Below are positions 16,021 through 31,738 of a stretch of 43,679 nucleotides of DNA, one piece after another. The stretch is from Butyrivibrio sp. Its GTDB lineage: Bacteria; Bacillota; Clostridia; Lachnospirales; Lachnospiraceae. The notes below the pieces were generated by a model that saw only the letters and a list, made by a program, of their open reading frames with translations, had not been told where the DNA came from and did not search any database. Within the stretch, counting starts at the first letter, position 1; the number at the start of each line of letters is the position of its first letter. The DNA lies in NCBI RefSeq assembly GCF_017433805.1, contig NZ_JAFRGN010000073.1:1-43679 (forward strand), read 5' to 3'. The position numbers and the translations under genes were made by a program.

Positions 16021-16077
16021 ATACATAGTTAACAAACCGCCTCGGACAGATGGGCTCTTGTCCGGAAAGGAGTGACC

Positions 16078-17544
16078 ATGAAAAAGACCTTTAGTATTAA
16101 GAAAATTGCAGTAATAGCTGCAATTCTCATGGCCTCTGTAGCAGGAATTATTATATTTATCTATTCACAAAGGCTGACTGCTACAACTATGAGGCTCCTC
16201 AAGATGCAGGGAATAGTTAAGCTATTCGACAAGGAAAAAGAGAAAACTATCATTGATAACATTCGCCTTGCTAGTGGTAATTCAATCAAGACAGAGGCAG
16301 CATCCCTTGCAGCTATTGCTCTTGATGATTCCAAGGTTGTAACGATCAATGATGAGAGTAGAGCACAGTTCGAGCAAAAGGGCAAAAAGCTTAATATCAA
16401 GCTTACAGACGGAAGCCTTTTCTTTGAAGTAAGTAAGAAGCTTGCTGCAGATGAGACCTTTGATATCAGAACCTCATCCATGGTAGTAGGTATCAGAGGA
16501 ACATCAGGATATGTGGCAGTTGATGAAGAAGGACATGAAACTCTCTATATCACAGATGGAGAGGTTGAAGTTATAGGTACCAACCCTGTAACAGGCGAAC
16601 AGAAGGTTATTAGAGTAAAGGCTGGCCAGAGAATCAGAGTATATCTGTACAATGACAGGCCCAAGGACAGCATTATGTTCACTCTTGAAGATGTATCAGA
16701 AGATGATCTTAAACAGGCAATCAAGGACAGACTTATAGAAAATGACCCTCTTTTAGCTAAGGTATGTAATGCTACAGGGTGGGATAAGAATAAGATTCTT
16801 GGAATTGAAATGATCCCTGAAGATGTAGTTCCTACCAATGCTGGCGATGTTATAGAAGAGCCTGAAAAAGAGGAAGTTGCCAGCGCAGCAGAAAGTTCTT
16901 CCGCAGAGGAAGTTGTAGAAGAAGCAGCTGCTACTACGGCATCTACAGAAGAAGTTGAAGAGCCGCAGCAGGTAGTAGAAGAGACAAAACCTGCAGTAGT
17001 ACTTCCAGATACATCAGAATTTGATCCTGCTTACTACGCATCACAGAATCAGGATGTTGTAGATCAGTATGGAAATGATCCGGAAGCTCTTTATCAGCAC
17101 TATCAGGAATTTGGTGAGGATGAAGGAAGAGCAGCAACAGCATCTGAAGCTCAGGAACAGAATAGCTCTCAGGAAGAAGCATATTTGCAGTTCCAGCAGG
17201 ATCTTGCAAGAGCTCAGGAAGAACAGGCTGAGCAGCAAAGATTGGAGCAGCAGCAAAGACTTGATCAGCAGGCAATGCAGAATGCCCTGAATCAGGCAAA
17301 TAATATGAATCAGGATAACGGCCAGGATGATACTAATTATGTTGATAATAATAGCACTCAGGTAAACAATACTCAGCAGCAACCAAATAATGACTATAAT
17401 CCATACGCTGATCCTAACAGTGAACTGTATGACCCTGATAATACCAATCCTGATAATCCAAATTATATAGATCCTGATGCAGGAGATCCAAATAATGATC
17501 CTGGAAATGGTAATGGTAACGGTAATGGAACTGGTGGACCTTGA
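16078..17544 (+). CDS. FecR-domain membrane protein with surface repeat and Gln/Asn-rich tail
   Basis: A 488-residue protein anchored by one N-terminal membrane segment (about 8-25). ATG 16078 is chosen because AAAGGAG precedes it at a five-base spacing. A FecR domain follows: SLFFEVSKKLAADETFDIRT, then VVGIRGTSGYVAVDEEG and VIRVKAGQRIRVY, near residues 100-200. An acidic Ala/Glu linker leads to FDPAYYASQNQDVVDQYG...LYQHYQEFGEDEGR near 314-353, a module known from many extracellular proteins. The tail is rich in Gln, Asn, Asp and Gly, ending in NGNGNGNGTGGP. The domain is probably outside the cell. FecR genes often sit next to CHASE2 cyclases, as here; a sensory partnership is likely but unproven. 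Confidence 0.85.
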   Translation: MKKTFSIKKIAVIAAILMASVAGIIIFIYSQRLTATTMRLLKMQGIVKLFDKEKEKTIIDNIRLASGNSIKTEAASLAAIALDDSKVVTINDESRAQFEQKGKKLNIKLTDGSLFFEVSKKLAADETFDIRTSSMVVGIRGTSGYVAVDEEGHETLYITDGEVEVIGTNPVTGEQKVIRVKAGQRIRVYLYNDRPKDSIMFTLEDVSEDDLKQAIKDRLIENDPLLAKVCNATGWDKNKILGIEMIPEDVVPTNAGDVIEEPEKEEVASAAESSSAEEVVEEAAATTASTEEVEEPQQVVEETKPAVVLPDTSEFDPAYYASQNQDVVDQYGNDPEALYQHYQEFGEDEGRAATASEAQEQNSSQEEAYLQFQQDLARAQEEQAEQQRLEQQQRLDQQAMQNALNQANNMNQDNGQDDTNYVDNNSTQVNNTQQQPNNDYNPYADPNSELYDPDNTNPDNPNYIDPDAGDPNNDPGNGNGNGNGTGGP

Positions 17545-17569
17545 TCATAGATTATAAAAGGCGTTTGCC

Positions 17570-19414
17570 ATGAGAAAGAAGATAATCAGAAGCTATCTTA
17601 AAAGACCTAAATATAGAAATTTAGCCATTCTATTCTTTATACTGACGGTTTTGTATACCTTTGCTGTGTATTTTAAGGTTGTTAACCGTGCAGATAAATG
17701 GATTCAGGATTCTCTTTACCAGAAGCCACAGGCAGTCTCTGGCGAAGTAGTGATAATTGGCATTGATAATGAGACAATAGAGCACTTTGGCCCATATAAT
17801 ACCTGGGATAGGAACATTATGGCCAGTGCTCTGGAGGCTCTGGGAAGTGACCCTGATAATAAGCCCGCAGTTGTAGCAATTGATACGCTGTATATTGGCG
17901 ATACTGATAAGGCTGCTGACAGTAGACTGGCTAATGCAGCGGAGAAACTTGGAAACGTAATAGTAGCGTCAGCAGGTGTATTTGGCTCAGGTTTCATAGA
18001 GGATGAAAATGGCAAGTTTCAGATGCATGGGCATCTCGTATATGGCTATGATGAGCCTTATGAGGGCCTTAAAAACGTAACCCGTCAGGGCCATATAAAT
18101 GCCATGTACGATATGGATGGTGTTCTTAGACACTCGCTTTTGTACTTTGATTATCAGGACAGTAAGGGTGATACCAGACGCATTTATTCCATGGCTCACG
18201 AGGCAGCCAGCATGTACGGTGAGCTGAATGGGATAACAATAAATGATCCTGAAGTTGATGAAAGAGGACACTTCTATCTGTCCTACACCGCAACACCTGG
18301 AACCTACAACGATGGAATGAATCTATACAAGCTCATAAACGGGGATGTTCCGGCAGATTATTATGCTGGAAAGATAGTACTGATAGGCCCGTATGCCGCA
18401 GGACTTCAGGATGAGTACTTTGCTCCCATAGATAGAGCCCAGAAGATGTACGGAGTAGAGTATCAGGCCAATGTTATAGAGGCACTCCTAAGAGGCGATT
18501 ATAAAAAAGAAATGTCTGACGTCCTGCAGGCTGGCCTGTTGTTTATAGCTATACTTGTCGGAGTTACCGTTTTTGTCATGGTTCCGGTCAAGGCAGCTAC
18601 GGTGATCATGATATTTATGATGGTAGTATCCTTTGGCGTATCCTATATCCTCTACGTCAGAGGCTGGCTGGTTCATGTAATATGGATGCCACTAGGAATA
18701 CTGATAATGTATGTTGCTTCTCTTGGAGTTCATTACCTTAGAGCAGCGCTTGAAAAGAGAAGAGTCACCAAGACCTTTGAAAGATATGTGGCTCCTGAGA
18801 TCGTTAAAGAGATCATGAAGGAGGGCATGGAGAACCTGTCACTTGGTGGTAAGACCTGCGATATAGCAGTTCTTTTCGTAGATGTCAGAGGCTTTACTAC
18901 TATGTCAGAGAGATTATCTCCTGAAAAGGTAGTATTTATCCTCAACAAATACCTTACAATGGCCAGTGATTGTGTGGAAAAGAACAAAGGAACTCTTGAT
19001 AAGTTTGTAGGCGATGCCATGATGGCCTTCTGGGGAGCTCCGCTTCCACAGGATGATGCGATCTACAACGCAGTCAGAACTGCTATGGACATCATAGATG
19101 GTGCGAAAAGAGTTTCAGATGAATTAAAGGAAGAAATCGGAGAAGAACTAAGAGTTGGCGTTGGCGTTAACTTTGGACCAGCAGTTGTAGGAAATATGGG
19201 CGCAGTTAAGCACATGGACTACACAGCTATTGGAGATACGGTCAATACCGCAGCAAGACTTGAAGCAAATGCTCCTGGCGGAACTGTATATATCAGCCGC
19301 GTTGTAGCAGATGCCCTTGAGGGCAGAATAAAAGTAACTTCTCTCGGAGATACGATCAAATTAAAAGGAAAAGCAGAGGGTTTTGAAGTACTAAAGGTTG
19401 ATGAACTTATGTAA
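17570..19414 (+). CDS. CHASE2-domain class III adenylate cyclase
   Basis: Predicted to make cAMP at the membrane. Of 614 residues, a membrane segment (about 18-38) precedes an extracellular CHASE2 sensor (about 45-325, with VVIIGIDNETIEHFG and YAGKIVLIGPYA). Three more membrane segments lie at about 322-398. The cyclase domain has both metal aspartates, in FVDVRGFT near 437 and FVGDAMMAFWG near 480. The lysine in TLDKFVGD and the aspartate in HMDYTAIGD fit adenine specificity. The transition-state Asn and Arg are present in DTVNTAARLE. All catalytic positions are thus intact. The start is 25 bases after the FecR gene, so both are surely co-transcribed. Its stop lies six bases from the end of the convergent tetR gene. 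Confidence 0.93.
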   Translation: MRKKIIRSYLKRPKYRNLAILFFILTVLYTFAVYFKVVNRADKWIQDSLYQKPQAVSGEVVIIGIDNETIEHFGPYNTWDRNIMASALEALGSDPDNKPAVVAIDTLYIGDTDKAADSRLANAAEKLGNVIVASAGVFGSGFIEDENGKFQMHGHLVYGYDEPYEGLKNVTRQGHINAMYDMDGVLRHSLLYFDYQDSKGDTRRIYSMAHEAASMYGELNGITINDPEVDERGHFYLSYTATPGTYNDGMNLYKLINGDVPADYYAGKIVLIGPYAAGLQDEYFAPIDRAQKMYGVEYQANVIEALLRGDYKKEMSDVLQAGLLFIAILVGVTVFVMVPVKAATVIMIFMMVVSFGVSYILYVRGWLVHVIWMPLGILIMYVASLGVHYLRAALEKRRVTKTFERYVAPEIVKEIMKEGMENLSLGGKTCDIAVLFVDVRGFTTMSERLSPEKVVFILNKYLTMASDCVEKNKGTLDKFVGDAMMAFWGAPLPQDDAIYNAVRTAMDIIDGAKRVSDELKEEIGEELRVGVGVNFGPAVVGNMGAVKHMDYTAIGDTVNTAARLEANAPGGTVYISRVVADALEGRIKVTSLGDTIKLKGKAEGFEVLKVDELM

Positions 19415-19420
19415 AAGAGA

Positions 19421-20023
19421 TCACTCAACAACAAACTGATTGATGATACTTCTGGCAGCAAGCTCCAAGTGAGGCTTTAAGTCCTCAAGTGTAATGGGAT
19501 CGTTGTACATGATAGAGCTATAACCTGTAGAACCAACAAGCTCAATTATCATAAAAAGCATGACCTCAGGGTCACGGAATTTTAGTCCGGATTCCTCAAT
19601 CATATTGCGATATACTTTGCCAAAGTCAACGTCCTCACTGCTCATAGGAGTGGTGAGGGCTTTTTTGAATACTGCCCAGGACAGGTCTTTATATATGAAG
19701 GCAAGAAGGCCCTTGTTGGCATCAAGTTCATCAAGAACATAGTCCATAATGAAAATGAGCCTGCCTTCAAAATCGTGTATATCCTGTTCCTGAAGTGCGT
19801 TGTAAGCCTGCATGAACAGCTGACTGGATTTATGCGCGATCAGTCTGTTCCTTATATCATATTTGTCTTTAAAATATAGGTAGAAAGTGCCCTTGGCAAC
19901 TTCTGCCTTATTTACTATATCCTGAATGGAAGTCTTATTTATTCCCTGTGATGTGAATAATTCAAAGGAAGCATTCAGTAGATTTTCCATTTTAAGTTTC
20001 TTGTTCTCATCTGCTTTTCCCAT
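19421..20023 (-). CDS. TetR-family repressor of the adjacent efflux genes
   Basis: A 200-residue regulator. Its N-terminal helix-turn-helix is typical of the family: KMENLLNASFELFTSQGINK, then TSIQDIVNKAEVAKGTFYLYFKDKYDI at about residues 30-56. The C-terminal ligand domain is variable, as usual. The gene is divergent from the MMPL exporter. Two palindromes, TGACC-N3-GGTCA, flank the exporter promoter, the classical arrangement for a TetR repressor that also controls itself. The inducer is probably a substrate of the exporter. It converges with the adenylate cyclase gene with only six bases between stops, and no terminator is visible there. Family assignment is firm; the regulatory link is inferred from arrangement. 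Confidence 0.9.
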   Translation of the reverse strand: MGKADENKKLKMENLLNASFELFTSQGINKTSIQDIVNKAEVAKGTFYLYFKDKYDIRNRLIAHKSSQLFMQAYNALQEQDIHDFEGRLIFIMDYVLDELDANKGLLAFIYKDLSWAVFKKALTTPMSSEDVDFGKVYRNMIEESGLKFRDPEVMLFMIIELVGSTGYSSIMYNDPITLEDLKPHLELAARSIINQFVVE

Positions 20024-20160: not shown

Positions 20161-20175
20161 TTGACCAGTGGTCAT
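20161..20175. promoter_or_regulatory. TetR operator O1
   Basis: TGACCA-G-TGGTCA (20162-20174) is a perfect 13-bp palindrome. Its left half forms the -35 element TTGACC of the exporter promoter, so a bound repressor would block polymerase. Confidence 0.75.
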
Positions 20176-20202: not shown

Positions 20203-20215
20203 TGACCATCGGTCA
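20203..20215. promoter_or_regulatory. TetR operator O2
   Basis: TGACC-ATC-GGTCA repeats the half-sites of O1 with a different centre. The centres are 41 bp apart, close to four helical turns. It overlaps the expected start of exporter transcription, and read on the minus strand it supplies a TTGACC that could serve the divergent tetR gene. Confidence 0.7.
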
Positions 20216-22487: not shown

Positions 22488-25400
22488 ATGGTTAAGAAGA
22501 ATCTTTTAAGATCAATTTCAGTAATTATGGCATGCATGATGGCTGTTATGACAGTAGCGTGCGGCTCTAATAACGTAAGTACAGCTGATACAGCAAATGC
22601 AGTTGAGACAGCGCAGGAACAGCAGATTGAAAAGAGTATCATGGCTGGTTCACAGATTGCAGCTTCTATTGGAGAGGCTGGTAAGGTTGAGACTGTATAT
22701 GTTACAGCAGATGCAAACGGATCTGTTAACGATGTAATCGTAAGTGAGTGGCTCAAGAATGCCACAGCTTCCAGCGAGCTTTCAGATACTACAGAGCTCA
22801 AGGATATTGTAAATGTTAAGGGCGATGAGACTTTCACTGACAACGGTGACGGAACAGTTACATGGGATGCTGAAGGTTCAGATATCTACTATCAGGGAAC
22901 TACAGATAAAGAGCTTCCTGTAGATATGAAGATTACTTACACACTTGATGGAAAAGAGATTTCTCCTGCAGATATTGCAGGCAAGAGCGGAAAAGTTACT
23001 ATTCGCTTTGAGTATGATAACAAGGCTAAGCAGACAGTTGATGTTGATGGCAAGGATATCGAGGTTTACACACCATTTGCAGTTGTTTCAGGTATGATGC
23101 TTGATTCAGATAAGTTTGCTAATGTTGAGATTTCAAATGGTAAGATCATTTCTGATGGTGGTAACTACATTGTTATGGGAGTTGCTCTTCCTGGATTAAA
23201 AGAGAGTCTTGATATTTCTGATGATAAATGGGATGAACTTGATGATTCAGAAGAAATCAAGGATAAGCTTTCAAATGGATTTGAGATTACAGCAGACACA
23301 ACAGATTTTGAACTTGGTATGACAGTTACAATGGCAAGTTCAGATATTCTCTCAGATTTTGGTTTATCTGATCTTACAGATTCAGGTAAGATCGATGATC
23401 TCAAGGATGACATGAACGAGCTTAATGACGGTTCAAACAAGCTTGTTGATGGTGCAGGCGAGCTCAAGGATGGCACAGGCAAGCTCTATGATGGAACTAA
23501 AGAGCTTTACGATGGAGCTGGTGAGCTTAAGGACGGAACAGATAAGCTCTATGATGGAACTAAGGAACTTAAGGACGGCACAGGCAAGCTTGTAGATGGT
23601 ACCGGTAAGCTTAAGGACGGAACAGGTAAGCTCAAAGACGGCACAGGCAAGCTCAAAAACGGAACTGAAAAACTTGCAGATGGTGCAGGGCAGCTTGTAG
23701 ACGGAGCTGGTAAGCTCGCTGATGGAACAAGCAGCCTCAAGGAAGGTACTGGAAAGTTATATGACGGAACAGGAAGTCTGTACGATGGCATCGTAGCTTA
23801 TACAGATGGCGTAGCCAAGGCAAATGCAGGTGCTGGTGAATTGGCTAAGGGCGCTGCTTCAGCCAAGGCTGGATCAGCAAAGATTTCAAACGGCATTAAG
23901 AGTGCTGAGGCAGGAGCTGGTGATCTTGCCACAGGCGCTGCGAAAGTTGATGGTGGTGTTCAGCAGCTTGTATCTACCATGAATGGTATGGTTGAAACTC
24001 TTCAGGGTTCAGCAAGTGAACTTCAGGCAAATAGACAGGCTTTTGCTGACGCTTATTCATATCTCACAACTCCTGGCACTACTTGTTCAGATACTACACT
24101 TGGAATATTAAATCAGTGCACAAATGGCAAGATAACAGCTGCAAATGTTGAGGCGGTTAAGGCAGCAGGGCTTGCACAGATGGCTGGCACTCAGACAGGC
24201 GATGTACACCAGGAAGATAATGGTTCTGAGCTTGATCTGGACGTAACAGGTGGAGATCTCCAGAATCCTGATACAGAATCAGAGGATGGTAAAGAGACAA
24301 CTTCAGATTCAGCTTCAGAAGCTGGGACAGAAACGGGAGCAGAATCTGGAGCAGATGCAAACAACAATACAAATACAGATACAAACACTGATACAAACAC
24401 AAACACTACTACAATTGCTGATGAGACTGTTCCTACAGCTTCTACACCAGCTGGTACTCAGAGTGATGAAAATGTAAGATCAGCAGCAGACTCTACTGAA
24501 GAGAATGGTGGTAGTGGCAGCAATGGTGTAAGTGATGACGGACAGACATCATATACAAAAGAGCAGGTTCAGGCTCTGATTGATGATGCAGTAGCTAAGG
24601 CACTTGCCAAGGCACAAGAAGAATATGAGAATCAGGCTAAGGAGCAGAAAGAACAGGCTGAGAAGGAATATGCTGAGAAAGCACAGGAACTTCAGAAGCA
24701 GGCAGAAGAACTCCAGAAGAAGGCTGATGAAATTAAGAACCAGGTACAAAATGCTCAGCTTGTAACTCTTTATATGTCAGCTCTTTCAGCTACTGGTACA
24801 GCTGTAAACGTATTTGATACTGTTCTTTCAAAAATGGGCAATGTAGGTATGACTCCAGAGCAGCAGCTTGCAATCAAGACTTTATTAGATGGAACAAATA
24901 CTCTTTCAGCTGGAGCAAATTCTTTACAGGGTGGTCTTAAAACACTTGATGCAGGCGCAGAAGCCCTTGATTCAGGTCTTGGAGATCTTAGCAACGGAGT
25001 AGCTTCGCTTGCAACTGGTATTGGTACAATTGCAGCAAGCAGCGATAAGTTAAAGAGTGGAGCTAGCCAGCTTAAGAGCGGCGCAGGCGATCTTAATAAT
25101 GGCGCAGGACAGCTTAAGGATGGCGCTTATCAGCTTAGTAGCGGAACTAAGGAACTTAAGAGTGGCGCAGATGAGCTCAACAGCGGAGCAGGTGAACTTG
25201 ATAATGGCGCTGCAGAGCTTGATAACGGAGCAGGCGAGCTTAATAGTGGAGCAGGCGAGCTTGATAACGGAGCGGCAGAGCTTATGGACGGTGCAGGACA
25301 GCTCAATGATGGAGCAGTTAAGCTTTACGATGGAGCTGGAGAACTAAATGATGGTGCTAAGAAGCTTGATGATGGTGTTCAGGAACTTCTTGATGGTATC

Positions 25401-25595
25401 TGCAAGTTTGATGAAGAAGGCATTAAGAAGTTGTATGAAGCATTTGATGGTGATCTTACTGAGTTTGCTGACAAGATGACAGCTATTCAGGAGGCTGGAA
25501 GCAACTATACATCATTTGGTGGTGCAAATGCTGAAGAGAAGAGCAGTGTTAAGTTTATTATCAAAACAGAAGGCGTCAAGGCTCAGGATATCTGA
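22488..25595 (+). CDS. Giant two-arm heptad-repeat lipoprotein partnered with the exporter
   Basis: A 1035-residue predicted lipoprotein. ATG 22488 follows AAGAGGAG, and the signal ends in TVAC; an upstream TTG would put junk before the signal. Residues 30-300 form a globular part with DGKEISPADIAGKSGKVTIRFEYDNK. Residues 309-490 are 26 consecutive seven-residue units such as GKLKDGT and AGELKDG, all in phase on glycine. Residues 491-795 hold a helical portion, a Thr/Asn/Asp-rich linker, and a charged coiled coil (EQKEQAEKEYAEKAQELQKQ). Residues 796-970 are 25 more heptads. It resembles the heptad region of YhgE/Pip proteins but lacks their membrane domain. It sits in the exporter operon, so a role as an extracellular accessory or periplasmic-adaptor analogue is my inference. 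Confidence 0.8.
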   Translation: MVKKNLLRSISVIMACMMAVMTVACGSNNVSTADTANAVETAQEQQIEKSIMAGSQIAASIGEAGKVETVYVTADANGSVNDVIVSEWLKNATASSELSDTTELKDIVNVKGDETFTDNGDGTVTWDAEGSDIYYQGTTDKELPVDMKITYTLDGKEISPADIAGKSGKVTIRFEYDNKAKQTVDVDGKDIEVYTPFAVVSGMMLDSDKFANVEISNGKIISDGGNYIVMGVALPGLKESLDISDDKWDELDDSEEIKDKLSNGFEITADTTDFELGMTVTMASSDILSDFGLSDLTDSGKIDDLKDDMNELNDGSNKLVDGAGELKDGTGKLYDGTKELYDGAGELKDGTDKLYDGTKELKDGTGKLVDGTGKLKDGTGKLKDGTGKLKNGTEKLADGAGQLVDGAGKLADGTSSLKEGTGKLYDGTGSLYDGIVAYTDGVAKANAGAGELAKGAASAKAGSAKISNGIKSAEAGAGDLATGAAKVDGGVQQLVSTMNGMVETLQGSASELQANRQAFADAYSYLTTPGTTCSDTTLGILNQCTNGKITAANVEAVKAAGLAQMAGTQTGDVHQEDNGSELDLDVTGGDLQNPDTESEDGKETTSDSASEAGTETGAESGADANNNTNTDTNTDTNTNTTTIADETVPTASTPAGTQSDENVRSAADSTEENGGSGSNGVSDDGQTSYTKEQVQALIDDAVAKALAKAQEEYENQAKEQKEQAEKEYAEKAQELQKQAEELQKKADEIKNQVQNAQLVTLYMSALSATGTAVNVFDTVLSKMGNVGMTPEQQLAIKTLLDGTNTLSAGANSLQGGLKTLDAGAEALDSGLGDLSNGVASLATGIGTIAASSDKLKSGASQLKSGAGDLNNGAGQLKDGAYQLSSGTKELKSGADELNSGAGELDNGAAELDNGAGELNSGAGELDNGAAELMDGAGQLNDGAVKLYDGAGELNDGAKKLDDGVQELLDGICKFDEEGIKKLYEAFDGDLTEFADKMTAIQEAGSNYTSFGGANAEEKSSVKFIIKTEGVKAQDI
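23412..23957 (+). repeat. Heptad arm 1: 26 in-phase 21-bp units
   Basis: Twenty-six consecutive 21-bp units each encode seven residues ending in glycine, starting MNELNDG and ending AAKVDGG. Units in the middle are almost identical (GKLKDGT), while the last eight are Ala-rich (AGELAKG, SAKISNG). Confidence 0.9.
24873..25397 (+). repeat. Heptad arm 2: 25 in-phase 21-bp units
   Basis: Twenty-five consecutive 21-bp units, from IKTLLDG to VQELLDG. All end in glycine except the eighth, which ends in Ser (IGTIAAS). Here the Ala-rich, irregular units come first and the regular AGELDNG-like units last, the mirror image of arm 1. Confidence 0.9.
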
Positions 25596-26042: not shown

Positions 26043-27749
26043 TTATTCTTTAGAAGCTTCTTTTAAAGCTGCCACAATTTCAGCCTCTGTTGTAAGAGCC
26101 ATGATCTTGTCAGCAAGCTCATCTGCTTCTTTTTTGCTCCATTTGGAAATGATGCAACGCGCTGTCAGCACCAGTACAGGGTTAACTGAGAACTCTGTAA
26201 GTCCAAAGGAGATGAGAAGTGGGATCATAAGAGGATCAGCTGCAGCTTCTCCGCACATTCCTACAGGAATTCCTGCCTCTCTACCACATTCTATGATATG
26301 TCTGATAGAACGAAGTACTGATGGCTGGAAAGTGGAATATAGGTATGCTACGTCGCTATTTCCCCTGTCTACACTCATTGTATACTGAGTAAGATCGTTA
26401 GTTCCGATTGAGAAGAAATCAGCCTCTTTTGCAAGAATATCAGCAATAAGGGAAGCTGCTGGTGTCTCAATCATGCATCCAACTTCTATATCCTTGTCGT
26501 AGTCTGTTCCATTTGCATCGAAATCTTTTTTGATCTCTGCAACCATTTCCTTAACAGCTCTAAGCTCTTCAACACAGGTTACAAGAGGAATCATGATCTT
26601 GACCTTGCCAAAAGCGCTTGCTCTGATGATTGCGCGCAGCTGGAGCATATATGCTTCTTTATTTCCAAGACAGTATCTTACAGCTCTATAGCCAAGGAAT
26701 GGATTTTCCTCCTTCTTCATTCCAAGATAAGGAATATCCTTGTCTCCGCCAATGTCCAAAGTTCTGATAATAACTGGCTTGCCACCCATAGTTACGGCAG
26801 CTTCCTTATAAGCATTAAACTGTTCTTCTTCAGTAGGAAGGTGACCACTGTCCATGAACAGGAACTCTGAGCGGAAAAGACCTATGCCTTCGCCGTCGCA
26901 CTCAAGAGCCTTCTTGGCATCCTTGGGAGTTCCGATGTTACAGAAAAGCTCAACGCTTTCACCATCTGCTGTCAAAGTTTCTTTTCCTAAAAAGCCCTTA
27001 AGCTCAGACTGTTTGCGGATAAAATCCTCGCGCTTAATAAGATACTTGGATAAGATATCTCCTTCAGGATTGATGTAGACAATGCCCTCAGTTCCATCAA
27101 CAATAGCTGTATCCTTATCCTTCACAAGTGTTGTGATGTCAGGAACAGACAGAACAGCTGGAATTTCCAACGCTCTTGCCAGGATGGCAGAGTGGGATGT
27201 TTTGCCTCCCACCTCTGTGATTATTCCGGCAACATTTTTGTTGTTGATCTGAGAAGTCATGGAAGGTGTGAGATCTCTGGCTACAAGGATAGTGCCAGGC
27301 TCAACCTTGCTGATATCTATATCTTTGATGCCTAAAAGGAGCTTTAACATGCTTACCTTGATATCACTGATATCAGAGGCACGCTGTTTCATCATCTCGT
27401 CATCCATCTGTGAGAACATGCCGATGAACATGTCGCAGACTGCTTCAACAGCAGCTTCTGCGCACTGTCCTGCATCAATCATCTTGGTCATTTCACCAGC
27501 CATGGAAGGATCAGAAATCATCACAAGGTGACCTTCGAGGATTTCAGCCTCTTTGGGACCGATTCTCTTTCTGATGTCCTCCGCCATAGCAGAAGTTTCA
27601 GCCTTAAAAGCTTCTACTGCCTCGCTAAAACGCACTTTTTCAGCAGCAGTATCTTCAATCTTTTTCTTCTCGAAACTTAGATCGTGCTCGACTATTACAC
27701 AAATGCTTCCAATGCCAATACCACGGGATGCAGCTATTCCTTTGAACAT
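26043..27749 (-). CDS. ptsI: PTS enzyme I
   Basis: Phosphoenolpyruvate-protein phosphotransferase, the first general protein of the phosphotransferase system, acting in the cytoplasm. It takes phosphate from PEP and passes it to HPr. The 568 residues match the usual length of 560-580. The phosphorylated histidine is His186 in GGKTSHSAILAR. The PEP-binding domain shows GLFRSEFLFMD, CMIETPAASL, DFFSIGTNDLTQYT and GIPVGMCGEAAADP. GGAGG precedes the ATG. It is the last gene of the fructose operon, 21 bases after ptsH. All key residues are present. Confidence 0.97.
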   Translation of the reverse strand: MFKGIAASRGIGIGSICVIVEHDLSFEKKKIEDTAAEKVRFSEAVEAFKAETSAMAEDIRKRIGPKEAEILEGHLVMISDPSMAGEMTKMIDAGQCAEAAVEAVCDMFIGMFSQMDDEMMKQRASDISDIKVSMLKLLLGIKDIDISKVEPGTILVARDLTPSMTSQINNKNVAGIITEVGGKTSHSAILARALEIPAVLSVPDITTLVKDKDTAIVDGTEGIVYINPEGDILSKYLIKREDFIRKQSELKGFLGKETLTADGESVELFCNIGTPKDAKKALECDGEGIGLFRSEFLFMDSGHLPTEEEQFNAYKEAAVTMGGKPVIIRTLDIGGDKDIPYLGMKKEENPFLGYRAVRYCLGNKEAYMLQLRAIIRASAFGKVKIMIPLVTCVEELRAVKEMVAEIKKDFDANGTDYDKDIEVGCMIETPAASLIADILAKEADFFSIGTNDLTQYTMSVDRGNSDVAYLYSTFQPSVLRSIRHIIECGREAGIPVGMCGEAAADPLMIPLLISFGLTEFSVNPVLVLTARCIISKWSKKEADELADKIMALTTEAEIVAALKEASKE

Positions 27750-27770
27750 ATAATAATCCTCCAGCTAATA

Positions 27771-28034
27771 TCAGTCGCCAAGTCCACTTTCAACGAGCTC
27801 GATAGCCTTTTTGAGAGCATCTGCCTCATCTGGACCATCGCATACGATTTCGATTTCGCTTCCGCACTTGATACAAGCGCTCATGAGCATCATAACGCTC
27901 TTAGCATCGTAAGTTGTGCCATTGAATACAACCTTAACATCGCTTGCAAAAGGGGTAACGGTCTGGCAAAAGAGACTTGCTGGACGCATGTGCATTCCCT
28001 GTTCATTAGTTACTGTAATTTTCTGTGATACCAT
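27771..28034 (-). CDS. ptsH: Phosphocarrier protein HPr
   Basis: Small cytoplasmic phosphocarrier of 87 residues, the normal length. It receives phosphate on His15 in GMHMRPAS from enzyme I and hands it to the EIIA domain of the fructose permease. Ser46 in DAKSVMML is conserved, the site used by HPr kinase in Gram-positive carbon catabolite control, so the protein is suited to that role too. GAAAGGA precedes the ATG. The gene lies 18 bases after fruA and 21 bases before ptsI. Finding ptsH and ptsI inside a fructose operon ties the general PTS proteins to fructose supply. Confidence 0.97.
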   Translation of the reverse strand: MVSQKITVTNEQGMHMRPASLFCQTVTPFASDVKVVFNGTTYDAKSVMMLMSACIKCGSEIEIVCDGPDEADALKKAIELVESGLGD

Positions 28035-28052
28035 TTTTTATATTTCCTTTCA

Positions 28053-29981
28053 TTAATCGTCTACTTTTTTCTTAAGAATTCCAAGCATCAGACAGCCAGC
28101 AGCTGATCCGGCAAGGAGAGCAACGAGATACATTGCTACGTTACCAACTACAGGGAATACGAAGATTCCGCCGTGAGGAGCCATAAGTGTGCATCTGAAT
28201 ACCATTGAAAGAGCGCCTGCAAGTCCTGAGCCAACCATAAGTGATGGGATAACTCTGATAGGATCAGCAGCTGCGAATGGGATAGCACCCTCAGTGATGA
28301 AGCAAAGACCCATGATGAAGTTAACAGGGCCAGACTTTCTCTCAGCTGGTGTGAACTTATTCTTAAAGAAGATTGTTGCAAGAGCAATAGCGATAGGAGG
28401 AACCATTCCGCCTACCATAACAGCTGCCATGATCATGTAGCCTGTCTCGCTCTGGCTTGCAAGAGCAGCTGTACCAAATACGTAAGCAGCCTTGTTAAGA
28501 GGGCCACCCATATCTGTTGCCATCATAGCGCCGAGGAGAACACCAAGTGCTACGATTGAGCCTGTTCCCATGCCTTCAAGGATGCCTGTGATCCATGCGT
28601 TAAGAGCGCCAACGATAGGGTTGATAGCGCACATTACAAGACCAATAACCAGGATTCCGCAAAGAGGATAGATCAGAACTGGCTTAATTCCTTCAAGGGC
28701 CTGTGGAAGCTTGTCACAGATTCTCTCAAGGAAAAGAACTATGTAACCTGCAGCAAAACCGGCTACGAGAGCACCAAGGAAAGCTGAAGGAATGTTTCCA
28801 CCAGGAGCAGCGAAGGTTGCACCAGTGCTTGCAAGAGCACCACCTACGAAACCAACTGCAAGACCTGGACGGTCAGCAATACTCTGAGCAATGAATCCGG
28901 CGAGGATAGGAAGCATGAATCCAAATGCAACGCCGCCGATTGTCTTAAACCATGCAGCAACTGGTGTGTTAGAACCGAAGTTGCTAGGATCGATTGAATA
29001 GTCATCCAAAAGGAATGCGATAGCAATGAGGATACCGCCGCCAATAACGAATGGAAGCATGTGTGAAACACCATTCATAAGGTGTTTGTAAAGCTTTCTT
29101 CCAACTGTCTCGTTAGAGTCATCGGATGCTTTTGCGATAGCGCCTGTGTGCTTGTAGGACTTTGTCTCGCCCTTAACAGCCTTATTGATCAGGTCTTCTG
29201 GATTGTGGATGGCTTCCTTAGTAGAAGTAATGATTACTTCCTTGCCATCAAATCTTCCCATATCGATATTCTTATCGCACGCGATGATGATTGCATCAGC
29301 CTCTGCGATTTCAGATGCTGTGAGAACATCCTTTGCACCTGCAGAGCCGTCTTTTTCTACCTTGATAGAAAGACCCATCTCTTTAGCCTTGAGCTCAAGA
29401 GCTTCTGCAGCCATGAAGGTATGAGCGATACCTGTAGGACAAGCTGTTACGCCAAGAAGCTTTTTAGGAGTTGTACTTGCTGCTGGAGCAGAGCCAGCTT
29501 TCTTAGCAGCTTCCTCCTTGTCTTTTTCTGCTTCCTTGGCATCGATGATGCTAAGGAACTCTTCTGGAGTCTTAGCTGCGATAAGCTTAGAAGCAAAAGC
29601 CTGATCCATGAGAAGAGTCATAAGCTTGGATAATACTTCAAGATGTGTATCTGCAGCTGTATCAGGTGCAGCAATCATGAAGAATAACTTACTTGGGTTG
29701 CCATCAAGTGACTTGTAGTCAACACCTGCTGGAACTGTCATAGCTGATAGACCAGGATTTGCTACAGCAAATGATTTAGCGTGTGGAACAGCGATTCCCA
29801 TTCCAATTGCTGTAGAGCCTTTTTCCTCTCTTGCGAGGATTGCCTTCTTAAAGGCAGATGCGTTGTTGAGATTACCAACCTTCTCGTGCAGCTCGATCAG
29901 AGCGTCGATAACAGCGTTCTGGTCAGCTGCTGAAGCATTGATACTAATGCCGTCTTTTTTGAGTAAATCTGTGATTTTCAT
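28053..29981 (-). CDS. fruA: Fructose PTS permease EIIABC
   Basis: Membrane permease that imports fructose and phosphorylates it at carbon 1. With 642 residues it joins all three domains. EIIA is at 1-145, with phosphorylated His67 in GIAVPHAKS. EIIB is at about 174-275, with Cys181 in VTACPTGIAHTFMAAEA. EIIC is at about 300-640, with multiple membrane segments and GGxxAxxGATFAAPGGNIPSAFLGAL-like pore elements. An Ala/Lys-rich linker lies between EIIA and EIIB. I take the ATG at 29981, directly after AAAGGAGGG; an ATG nine codons upstream would place that ribosome binding site inside the gene. It follows fruK by 93 bases and precedes ptsH by 18. Confidence 0.95.
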   Translation of the reverse strand: MKITDLLKKDGISINASAADQNAVIDALIELHEKVGNLNNASAFKKAILAREEKGSTAIGMGIAVPHAKSFAVANPGLSAMTVPAGVDYKSLDGNPSKLFFMIAAPDTAADTHLEVLSKLMTLLMDQAFASKLIAAKTPEEFLSIIDAKEAEKDKEEAAKKAGSAPAASTTPKKLLGVTACPTGIAHTFMAAEALELKAKEMGLSIKVEKDGSAGAKDVLTASEIAEADAIIIACDKNIDMGRFDGKEVIITSTKEAIHNPEDLINKAVKGETKSYKHTGAIAKASDDSNETVGRKLYKHLMNGVSHMLPFVIGGGILIAIAFLLDDYSIDPSNFGSNTPVAAWFKTIGGVAFGFMLPILAGFIAQSIADRPGLAVGFVGGALASTGATFAAPGGNIPSAFLGALVAGFAAGYIVLFLERICDKLPQALEGIKPVLIYPLCGILVIGLVMCAINPIVGALNAWITGILEGMGTGSIVALGVLLGAMMATDMGGPLNKAAYVFGTAALASQSETGYMIMAAVMVGGMVPPIAIALATIFFKNKFTPAERKSGPVNFIMGLCFITEGAIPFAAADPIRVIPSLMVGSGLAGALSMVFRCTLMAPHGGIFVFPVVGNVAMYLVALLAGSAAGCLMLGILKKKVDD

Positions 29982-30074
29982 AGTCCCTCCTTTACGGGAT
30001 TGCCCCATAGTACTTGTACCTTTTTTCTATATATAAAGAGTTCTTGGATAAACAAACTCACTTATATCTGTGCC

Positions 30075-30980
30075 TTACAATCTGGCGTATAACTCTCTGA
30101 TAGCTTCGCCTGTAGCAAGATCATCTGAAAAAGCAGTAGCACTTCCTGCTGCAGTTCCCATCTTGAGGGCTTCTGCGTAGTCGTGCTTGTTCATGTATCC
30201 GGCCACGAAACCTGCAACCATTGAATCGCCGGCTCCAACTGAGTTTCGAACCTGACCTTTAGGAACGCCAACTCTGTGTTTTTCACCAGTTTCTGTAATG
30301 AGCATTGCGCCATCGCCTGCCATTGAGATCAGAACGTTTCTGGCACCCATCTCCTGAAGCTTTTTGGCGTGTGCTTCAATTTCATCATCAGTCTTAAGAA
30401 CTGTTCCGAACATCTCACCAAGTTCGTGATTATTAGGCTTGATAAGGAATGGGTGGTACTTTAATACGTTCTTAAGTAGATCCTTGGTTGCATCCACAAC
30501 TGTATTGATCTTTCTGTCTGACAGTCTTTCAAGTATCTTTTCATAGATGTCACTTGGAAGAGAGTTTGGAATACTTCCTGCCAGAATAATTGTGTCGCCA
30601 TCCTTGAGAGCATCAAGCTGTTTAAAGAGCTTGTCGATGGCTTCCTGAGGGATATTTGGTCCCTGGGCATTTATTTCTGTCTCAGCAGCGCCCTTGATCT
30701 TGACGTTGATTCTTGAAATTCCTTCCGGAAGCTCAATGAAATCAGCCTTGATTCCCTTTTTGTCAACGCTTTCAGCAATGGCTTTTCCTGTGAATCCGGC
30801 TACAAAGCCAAGAGCAGTATTCTCAAGGCCTAGATTCTGAAGGATGGTAGAAACATTGATTCCTTTTCCTCCAAAGTAGCACTCCTCGGAATCTGATCGA
30901 TTAGTCATTCCAGGTGCAAGCTCTGTTCCCATGCGTACAACGTAATCAATCGCGGGATTAAAGGTAATTGTGTAGATCAT
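30075..30980 (-). CDS. fruK: 1-phosphofructokinase
   Basis: Cytoplasmic kinase that turns fructose 1-phosphate from the permease into fructose 1,6-bisphosphate for glycolysis. The 301 residues form a PfkB-family fold. Signature 1 is seen as GGKGINVSTILQNLG near residue 38, and signature 2 as NSVGAGDSMVAGF near 246, with catalytic base Asp252. The start NPAIDYVVRM block is typical of the 1-phosphofructokinase branch (TxTxNPAxD). Its ATG overlaps the fruR stop by four bases, so the two are translationally coupled. Confidence 0.95.
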   Translation of the reverse strand: MIYTITFNPAIDYVVRMGTELAPGMTNRSDSEECYFGGKGINVSTILQNLGLENTALGFVAGFTGKAIAESVDKKGIKADFIELPEGISRINVKIKGAAETEINAQGPNIPQEAIDKLFKQLDALKDGDTIILAGSIPNSLPSDIYEKILERLSDRKINTVVDATKDLLKNVLKYHPFLIKPNNHELGEMFGTVLKTDDEIEAHAKKLQEMGARNVLISMAGDGAMLITETGEKHRVGVPKGQVRNSVGAGDSMVAGFVAGYMNKHDYAEALKMGTAAGSATAFSDDLATGEAIRELYARL

Positions 30981-31738
30981 TTTTTCTCCTCATTAACATT
31001 TTTGATAATGGTTTTACTGCTGTAGTTCTTAGAAACTTCACTGTCGGTAATAATGCAGCAGTTAGGTATCTCGGCAAAGGTTACGGAACTTACCTTGCCA
31101 AATTTGCTGTGGTCAGCAAGTATGTATGAAACATAAGCGTGTTTGACTGCTTCCTGCTTGACCAAAGCTTCATCCACATCAGGAGTAGTGTAGCCTGCGT
31201 GGAGTGATATTCCGTTTGTGCCCATGAATGCCTTGGTGAAATGATATTTACTGATGCCTTCAATGCAGTCGGGACCAATGATGGCCTCTGTAGTAGGTTT
31301 GCATCTGCCGCCGATTATCATGGTGTTGAGGCCTTTTTCTAACAGCTTCTTGGCGTGAACGATTCCGTTTGTGATGTACTTGGCTCTGGTGTTAGTGATG
31401 TATTTGATCATCTCCAGAGTAGTAGTGCCTGAGTCAATGTATACGAAATCATCATCATTGATGAGAGAAGCTGCATATTTGCTGATGGCCTCTTTTTCAT
31501 GAATGTTCAGAGCAGCCTTAGCTGATACTGAAGGCTCAAAGGTATTCACGTCAGTGTCTGAAATAGAAGTAGCACCTCCAAATACCTTGATGATTCGCTT
31601 CTCGTCATGTAGCACAGCAAGATCTCTTCTGATAGTTGCTGCAGAAGCTCCGAATTCCTCCATGAGCTCAGCTACTGTAACTGCATTTTTTTCATTTATA
31701 TATGAAACTATTAAATCCTGGCGTTCTTTGGTGAGCAT
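30977..31738 (-). CDS. fruR: DeoR-family regulator of the fructose operon
   Basis: A 253-residue regulator and first gene of the fructose operon. The N-terminal helix-turn-helix reads ERQDLIVSYINEKNAVTVAELMEEFGASAATIRRDL, with the family mark TIRRDL. A phosphosugar-binding domain follows, with YIDSGTTTLEMIKYI and MIIGGRCKPTTEAIIGPDC. Proteins of this type usually respond to fructose 1-phosphate. It overlaps fruK by four bases. A promoter is visible upstream, and further out an array of phased AATCA repeats, likely binding sites for this or another regulator. The name fruR rests on family and context. Confidence 0.93.
   Translation of the reverse strand: MLTKERQDLIVSYINEKNAVTVAELMEEFGASAATIRRDLAVLHDEKRIIKVFGGATSISDTDVNTFEPSVSAKAALNIHEKEAISKYAASLINDDDFVYIDSGTTTLEMIKYITNTRAKYITNGIVHAKKLLEKGLNTMIIGGRCKPTTEAIIGPDCIEGISKYHFTKAFMGTNGISLHAGYTTPDVDEALVKQEAVKHAYVSYILADHSKFGKVSSVTFAEIPNCCIITDSEVSKNYSSKTIIKNVNEEKK

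Follow-up and report, generated by a model that had tools for sequence, protein, structure and literature searches.

The window analysed here is a 43,679-nucleotide stretch of Butyrivibrio sp. DNA (contig NZ_JAFRGN010000073.1), and the subject of this study is one gene within it, which encodes a protein hereafter called the stalk protein (Table 1). Two arms built of glycine-ending heptads flank the middle of this protein. The two arms change length in lock-step across the homologues, the gene stands beside a gene for an MMPL-family RND exporter in a conserved order, and in six loci the exporter partner is switched to an ATP-binding cassette (ABC) type. We consider it rather probable that the protein is an exporter-associated, adaptor-like stalk, folded as an antiparallel hairpin of tunable length and served by a dedicated TetR regulator. 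The helices of the hairpin and the closure of its base are predicted by models; contact with the exporter, oligomerization and conduction of a substrate are what we infer.

Length of the two arms

The initial annotation counted 26 consecutive Gly-ending heptads in arm 1 and 25 in arm 2, all in phase. The recount gave 26 of 26 for arm 1. Arm 2 does hold 25 slots in a single phase, but only 24 of them end in Gly; the exception is the slot at 25020-25040 (IGTIAAS), and the run is therefore 7+1+17. The middle has the length of 305 residues that was claimed for it. When the whole protein was shuffled 1000 times, the longest run of Gly at every seventh position was 6, and shuffling within the composition of each arm (5000 shuffles each) gave at most 8 for arm 1 and 7 for arm 2. 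Judged by its sequence, the heptad repeat itself is of a known kind, since the protein matches the NCBIfam xxxLxxG family TIGR03057 with 207.3 bits (cut-off 18.6) over 11 stretches. These are all of the 11 TIGR03057 matches in the genome of the window, which is 98% complete.

The composition of the arms had been described as mirrored, with D-G units at the outer ends and Ala-rich units next to the middle. The D-G units are indeed found at the outer ends: arm 1 has 17 among its 26 units, and arm 2 has 8 among its 25, which include the outermost six. Ala, however, is enriched beside the middle only in arm 1 and is evenly spread through arm 2. In family averages over arrays of at least 20 units (78 for arm 1 and 70 for arm 2), both arms are rich in D/E at the base and gain Ala towards the tip.

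The heptads of the homologues were counted by a profile trained on 80 homologues (set 1) and the window protein, 2170 units in all. Another 80 loci (set 2) were unused in training. Set 1 is thus not an independent test of the unit profile, whereas set 2 and an outside set of distant family, class and phylum members are. The main arm statistics cover 154 proteins, after five incomplete or short frames (L120, L139, L173 and L183, cut at contig ends; L129, short) and two duplicates (L163 and L176) were dropped. L105 failed the anchor step, which leaves 153 proteins in the composition, phase-break, middle and arm-length (nm) analyses.

The number of units ranges from 6 to 55 in arm 1 and from 5 to 51 in arm 2, and the two counts are correlated with r=0.953 (n=154), 0.893 (153) and 0.893 (152) when segments of at least 2, 4 or 6 units are counted, respectively. 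At the same three thresholds, set 2 alone gave 0.946, 0.897 and 0.905, and the genus Butyrivibrio (n=30, window included) gave 0.893, 0.794 and 0.828. Independent contrasts on the base-domain tree gave 0.915, 0.753 and 0.766. A profile-free count of glycine runs gave r=0.815 between the arms in 72 of 81 proteins. The arms were within 3 units of each other in 124 of the 154 proteins, against a mean of 40.9 and a maximum of 61 for permuted pairs (10,000 permutations). The share of units in arm 1 averaged 0.51-0.52 with a standard deviation (SD) of 0.033 to 0.050, while random assignment of units to arms gave an expected SD of about 0.085 and never less than 0.067 in 2000 trials. This narrow dispersion indicates that the arms are held equal and are not merely alike on average; their equal length appears to be kept by selection. 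The initial annotation had proposed that equal arms despite changing unit number would support a fold-back of the arms. Such equality was confirmed in the 154 proteins (contrasts 0.75-0.92), and independent variation of the arms, which was also looked for, did not emerge as a rule.

Similar balance was found in the outside set, where two arms are present in 53 of the 60 proteins and their unit counts correlate at r=0.92 (0.79 by rank). The SD of the arm share was 0.071 against 0.103 expected, and 47 of the 53 proteins fell between 40 and 60%; the exceptions to balance are L256, L270, L204, L275, L287 and L276. The remaining seven proteins lack the two-arm glycine pattern. Separately, L206, L207, L209, L212, L213, L214 and L288 were observed to be MMPL-linked relatives of the base domain, similar in length, with few or no glycine heptads; their arms may consist of ordinary coiled coil.

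The length of the middle follows the arms only weakly and inversely, with r of -0.14 and -0.11 (154 proteins), down to -0.31 in set 2. Contrasts gave -0.08 to -0.47 by setting, part of which arises because small stray segments of the middle were counted to an arm. Phase breaks mirrored between the arms were modestly in excess, numbering 11 of 29 where 5.1 were expected, at an offset of 3.6 units that was chosen from the data; 11 of 5000 trials reached that number. Mirroring looks striking in L118, and the breaks of L069, L081, L110 and L161 are unmatched. Charge pairing between the arms was looked for in 153 proteins and not found.

Exporter partner and regulator

The link to an exporter made by the initial annotation is strongly supported, as an MMPL gene adjoins the stalk gene in 207 of the 220 fetched rows (two of the set-2 rows repeat rows of set 1). 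An adjacent MMPL gene shares the strand of the stalk gene in 71 of the 80 set-1 rows, in 77 of the 80 of set 2, in 19 of 20 from distant family members and in all 40 from the class and phylum. MMPL is upstream in 69 of the set-1 rows and downstream in 2, and it is upstream in all 77 of set 2. The gap between the two genes is 100 bases or less in 65 of 69 loci of set 1 and 70 of 77 of set 2. In the window, the stalk gene starts 86 bases after the MMPL stop, and a longer, TTG-started reading from 22398 is possible.

Among the 13 rows without MMPL, three start near a contig edge (L062, L154 and L177). In six others (L087, L098, L107, L109, L113 and L116), the upstream place is taken, in an unchanged order, by genes for an ABC ATPase and an FtsX-type permease. 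A scan of eight of these proteins, drawn from five of the six loci, matched every one to FtsX or ABC_tran. The best scores of the L107 ATPase were to MacB, DevA, DarD and LolD models, all below cut-off. The stalk proteins of the six loci have fewer glycine heptads than most homologues. L047 and L064 have neither an MMPL nor an ABC exporter; the check for ABC genes left out L129, L154, L177 and L217. In Gram-negative bacteria, one family of adaptor proteins pairs with both RND and ABC exporters. The same stalk with two unrelated exporter types therefore resembles those proteins, and the earlier analogy to periplasmic adaptors is in this way supported indirectly.

The nearest solved relatives of the window MMPL are MmpL4 and MmpL5 (E about 1e-10 to 1e-9). 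Two more open reading frames of the same genome match the MMPL model (G000:C70 and G000:C14; 874 and 766 aa), and no second heptad gene was found in that genome, including near these two. A further observation in other Lachnospiraceae is a group of nine RND-like open reading frames of 1113-1359 aa (L240-L248), in which the second membrane helix is preceded by an unusually long stretch with a few heptads in it. A fusion of stalk and pump in one chain was considered for them and is not proven, each holding only 2-12 detected heptad units; they possibly have a hairpin built into the pump.

A TetR-like gene lies beside the operon in 48 of 67 set-1 and 61 of 72 set-2 loci, counting loci that have MMPL and whose upstream flank extends for 900 bases or more. 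Between the TetR and MMPL genes of the window are twin TGACC-N3-GGTCA palindromes, 41 bases apart from start to start, where 0.02 such sites are expected in the window. They are the only ones found in the 3.45 Mb genome. In 37 of 73 set-2 loci the same motif falls in a 380-base stretch around the start of MMPL; the other 916,079 bases of these loci hold 1 site. Because the motif is nearly exclusive to the MMPL start and has only these two sites in the genome, the regulator looks dedicated to the operon. As a candidate from motif statistics, the twin palindromes are probably a dedicated TetR operator pair. The pairing of TetR and MMPL recalls the FarR-FarE fatty-acid exporter of Staphylococcus.

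Table 1. Coordinates of the stalk gene, its parts and its operon in the window
Feature	Position	Strand	Basis or remark
TetR-family regulator	19421..20023	-	divergent from exporter operon; PF00440 TetR_N 48.5 bits
Candidate TetR operator 1, palindrome TGACC-N3-GGTCA	20162..20174	.	motif statistics
Candidate TetR operator 2, palindrome TGACC-N3-GGTCA	20203..20215	.	motif statistics
MMPL-family RND exporter, 708 aa	20275..22401	+	PF03176 174.3 bits, cut-off 20.5
Stalk protein gene	22488-25595	+	open frame, ATG start, 1035 aa, predicted exported
Signal peptide with lipobox MTVAC	22488..22562	+	Cys codon 22560-22562; sequence
N-terminal beta domain (predicted base), residues 62-297	22671..23378	+	AlphaFold2 model, structure comparison, alignment
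Arm 1, 26 heptads, all Gly-ending	23412..23957	+	recount; model helix 300-500
Middle, 305 residues	23958..24872	+	model: small helical tip, disordered linker, extra helices
Arm 2, 25 heptad slots, 24 Gly-ending	24873..25397	+	recount; model helix 790-1006
C-terminal tail	25398..25592	+	DSSP strand 1019-1027 (25542-25568) completes N-terminal beta domain in model

Predicted fold and related systems

AlphaFold2 models of single chains, of modest confidence, show two long helices and a C-terminal strand that closes the N-terminal beta domain. As this strand completes the base in the model, both arms would share one base. The predicted local distance difference test (pLDDT) score of the base-domain block is mostly 75-95, with dips to 62 and 58. 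The base is mu-homology-domain-like by structure comparison, and the structural matches span residues 62..1029. VIA-align was used for this comparison because Foldseek alone superposed helical matches with a root-mean-square deviation of tens of angstroms. The antiparallel fold-back of the arms suggested by the initial annotation is strongly supported by the lock-step lengths, and the models and structural comparisons agree with it.

The base domain has a mean column identity of 36% over 41 sequences. The N-terminal domain was detected in 111 of 200 genomes of the taxonomic family (one genome per genus). A search with the 41-sequence alignment found it in 34 of 148 genomes sampled across the class and in 12 of 149 across the phylum, counting the genome of the window. 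Many bacteria of gut and rumen thus carry a gene of this kind. Among the best 80 of 556 confirmed loci in a scan of named genomes, the first 28 rows are Butyrivibrio, with 55-84% identity. Sequence comparisons of the base domain with Pfam and the PDB gave no useful relative (best E in the PDB 0.13). In set 1, the tail beyond the last heptad unit is 61-62 residues long at the median (5-95%: 46-78 over detectors). The tip was matched by blastp in at least 4 of the 154 proteins, window included, and 102 of 153 middles have no Cys; a conserved tip or an MmpL5-like tip disulphide is unsupported. The middles are variable, and the printed examples are often rich in Thr, Asn, Asp and Glu.

The signal peptide is the sole hydrophobic segment detected in the stalk protein by simple hydropathy. 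The window protein was initially called a lipoprotein, and it does carry a lipobox; lipidation is not a family-wide property, however, as the pattern was found in 60 of 154 proteins (27 of 30 in Butyrivibrio). Another feature seen at the protein end is a short amphipathic C-terminal tail of SFWQKLLxLF type in many of L199-L218 and L262-L289, a distant subgroup; it is absent, for example, from L204, L265, L272 and L275. This tail is perhaps a membrane-surface anchor.

The closest relative by repeat is YhgE/Pip, which has the same TIGR03057 heptad. Of the 14 YhgE/Pip loci retrieved, six show a pair of arms close in length (22/25, 20/26, 21/19, 24/23, 16/17 and 17/19; the first two from one genus), three have one unbroken array of 46-53 units and five have little or none; the nine with arms or arrays are L220-L228. 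Such pairing of arms may extend to xxxLxxG proteins in general. In YhgE, a single membrane protein, the arms are followed by several hydrophobic helices, which the stalk protein does not have. The stalk protein was not identified as YhgE/Pip, since none of its five NCBIfam families at E<=0.001 is YhgE/Pip and only its signal peptide is hydrophobic. No match to TIGR03062 was found in the genome of the window.

Mycobacterial MmpL4, MmpL5 and MmpL10 likewise join an MMPL/RND exporter to a long antiparallel hairpin of helices, which lies on the outer side. In passages of PMC12501195, the coiled-coil extension of MmpL5 is needed for efflux and modelled as a tube, and that of MmpL10 is also modelled as a tube in passages of PMC12183618. 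The MmpL hairpin is an insert in the pump, whereas that of the window would be a subunit apart from the pump, variable in length and seated on a beta base of its own. An MmpL protein with the insert of about 196 residues in periplasmic domain 2 was rejected by size, the window MMPL, with 708 aa, being too short beside several MmpL5/MmpL4 chains of 964-975 aa; other MmpL chains listed have 739-783 aa or are constructs of more than 1000 aa.

The best low-deviation hairpin match to both stalk models was the antiparallel helical hairpin of methyl-accepting chemotaxis proteins. Part of PMC5907407 describes length classes of this cytoplasmic hairpin that arose by symmetric heptad insertions and deletions. 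Unlike the stalk, it serves cytoplasmic signalling, has discrete length classes and has no exporter. EsaA/YueB is described in part of PMC10765036 as an elongated extracellular dimer of wall-spanning length, with a conduit proposed but unproven. As far as that part goes, its stalk is long enough for the wall, and therefore a single-membrane bacterium can build such a stalk. EsaA/YueB differs from the stalk protein in having two to six membrane helices and in being part of a type VIIb secretion system. Identity with it was rejected, as only the signal peptide is hydrophobic and no EsaA is among the five NCBIfam matches.

The membrane fusion proteins AcrA and MacA are alike in having a hairpin on a beta base and in partnering RND and ABC exporters. 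In these proteins the hairpin is inserted in the base. The base of the stalk is mu-homology-like in the models, which may set it apart from AcrA/MacA. An adaptor of HlyD/lipoyl type was not recovered by sequence models, with no Pfam family matching the stalk protein at E<=0.001. The structure matches listed are dominated by the mu-homology domain, and the lack of EsaA there, or of a membrane fusion protein with its barrel-sandwich hybrid and beta-barrel fold, excludes nothing. Among the titles listed by searches of the open-licence literature that were aimed at a heptad protein beside an MMPL exporter or at YhgE, none was on such a protein, and none was on the combination of a separate stalk, an exporter swap and length-locked arms.

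Readings of the stalk and neighbouring genes

In the reading we favour, the stalk protein would be the exported subunit of a TetR-controlled MMPL/RND exporter. Its base, formed from about 235 N-terminal residues and the last strand of the protein, would most likely sit on the exporter at the membrane's outer face. Both glycine heptad arms would leave the base and run out as one long antiparallel helical hairpin carrying the variable tip, which would lie outside. The hairpin could extend or enclose the export path outward, as adaptor hairpins or the mycobacterial MmpL coiled-coil do. A wider proposal, tentative and well short of probable, is that these proteins form a separate adaptor family of single-membrane bacteria with a fold unrelated to membrane fusion proteins, serving RND and ABC exporters, in which length-matched hairpins assemble a tube of tunable length that leads substrate through the wall. 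The phylum of the hosts is mostly single-membrane. The system bears on how RND-type pumps of single-membrane bacteria pass substrates beyond the wall and whether a partner is needed. Its homologues also form a natural series in which one hairpin varies in length from about 6 to 55 heptads, and which could serve to study how envelope machines are measured.

The length series also weighs against a strict wall-spanning role. The 26-27 nm per arm given by the initial annotation follows from taking the arms as straight helices of 182 and 175 residues, each residue adding 0.15 nm, and the mean arm length over 153 proteins ranges from 6.8 to 55 nm, with a median of 20. Compared with the usual thickness of a thick Gram-positive-type wall, some members are too short, counting detected heptads alone, and they therefore argue against a strict wall-spanning rule. 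The wall-spanning conduit of the initial annotation was ahead of the evidence.

The hairpin might instead hold the variable tip beyond the wall for attachment, as a receptor or as a decoy, with the exporter as an anchor or an unrelated supplier of envelope lipid. The variable middle, with its frequent Thr, Asn, Asp and Glu in the printed examples, and the wide length range speak for this. Pip, a heptad relative, is also a phage receptor. So is the wall-spanning EsaA/YueB, according to part of PMC10765036. We find such a display role rather doubtful, as it leaves the exporter adjacency in 207 of 220 rows and the switch to an ABC exporter unexplained. A partner that does not conduct is unlikely. 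Its base would hand over substrate or gate the exporter, and its hairpin would be a spacer that gauges envelope or wall distance; a conserved base, arms of varying length and a hardly conserved tip would fit, but a spacer has no obvious need of arms of up to 55 units. It is very improbable that the arms are ordinary slippage-prone repeats that came to be similar in length only because repeats expanded in some genomes. Short tandem units do expand easily, and arm lengths differ even within one genus; however, the SD of the arm share is 0.033 against a mean of 0.084 under binomial independent growth, and the 124 of 154 proteins with arms within 3 units stand far above the permuted maximum of 61.

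Two groups of neighbouring genes were also observed in the window. At 16072-19414, a gene for a FecR-domain protein is directly followed by one for a protein with CHASE2 and adenylate/guanylate cyclase domains. On the minus strand, 26043-31738 resembles a fructose phosphotransferase system (PTS) operon and holds genes for enzyme I, HPr, a PTS subunit, a kinase and a DeoR-like regulator, named by eye from translations only.
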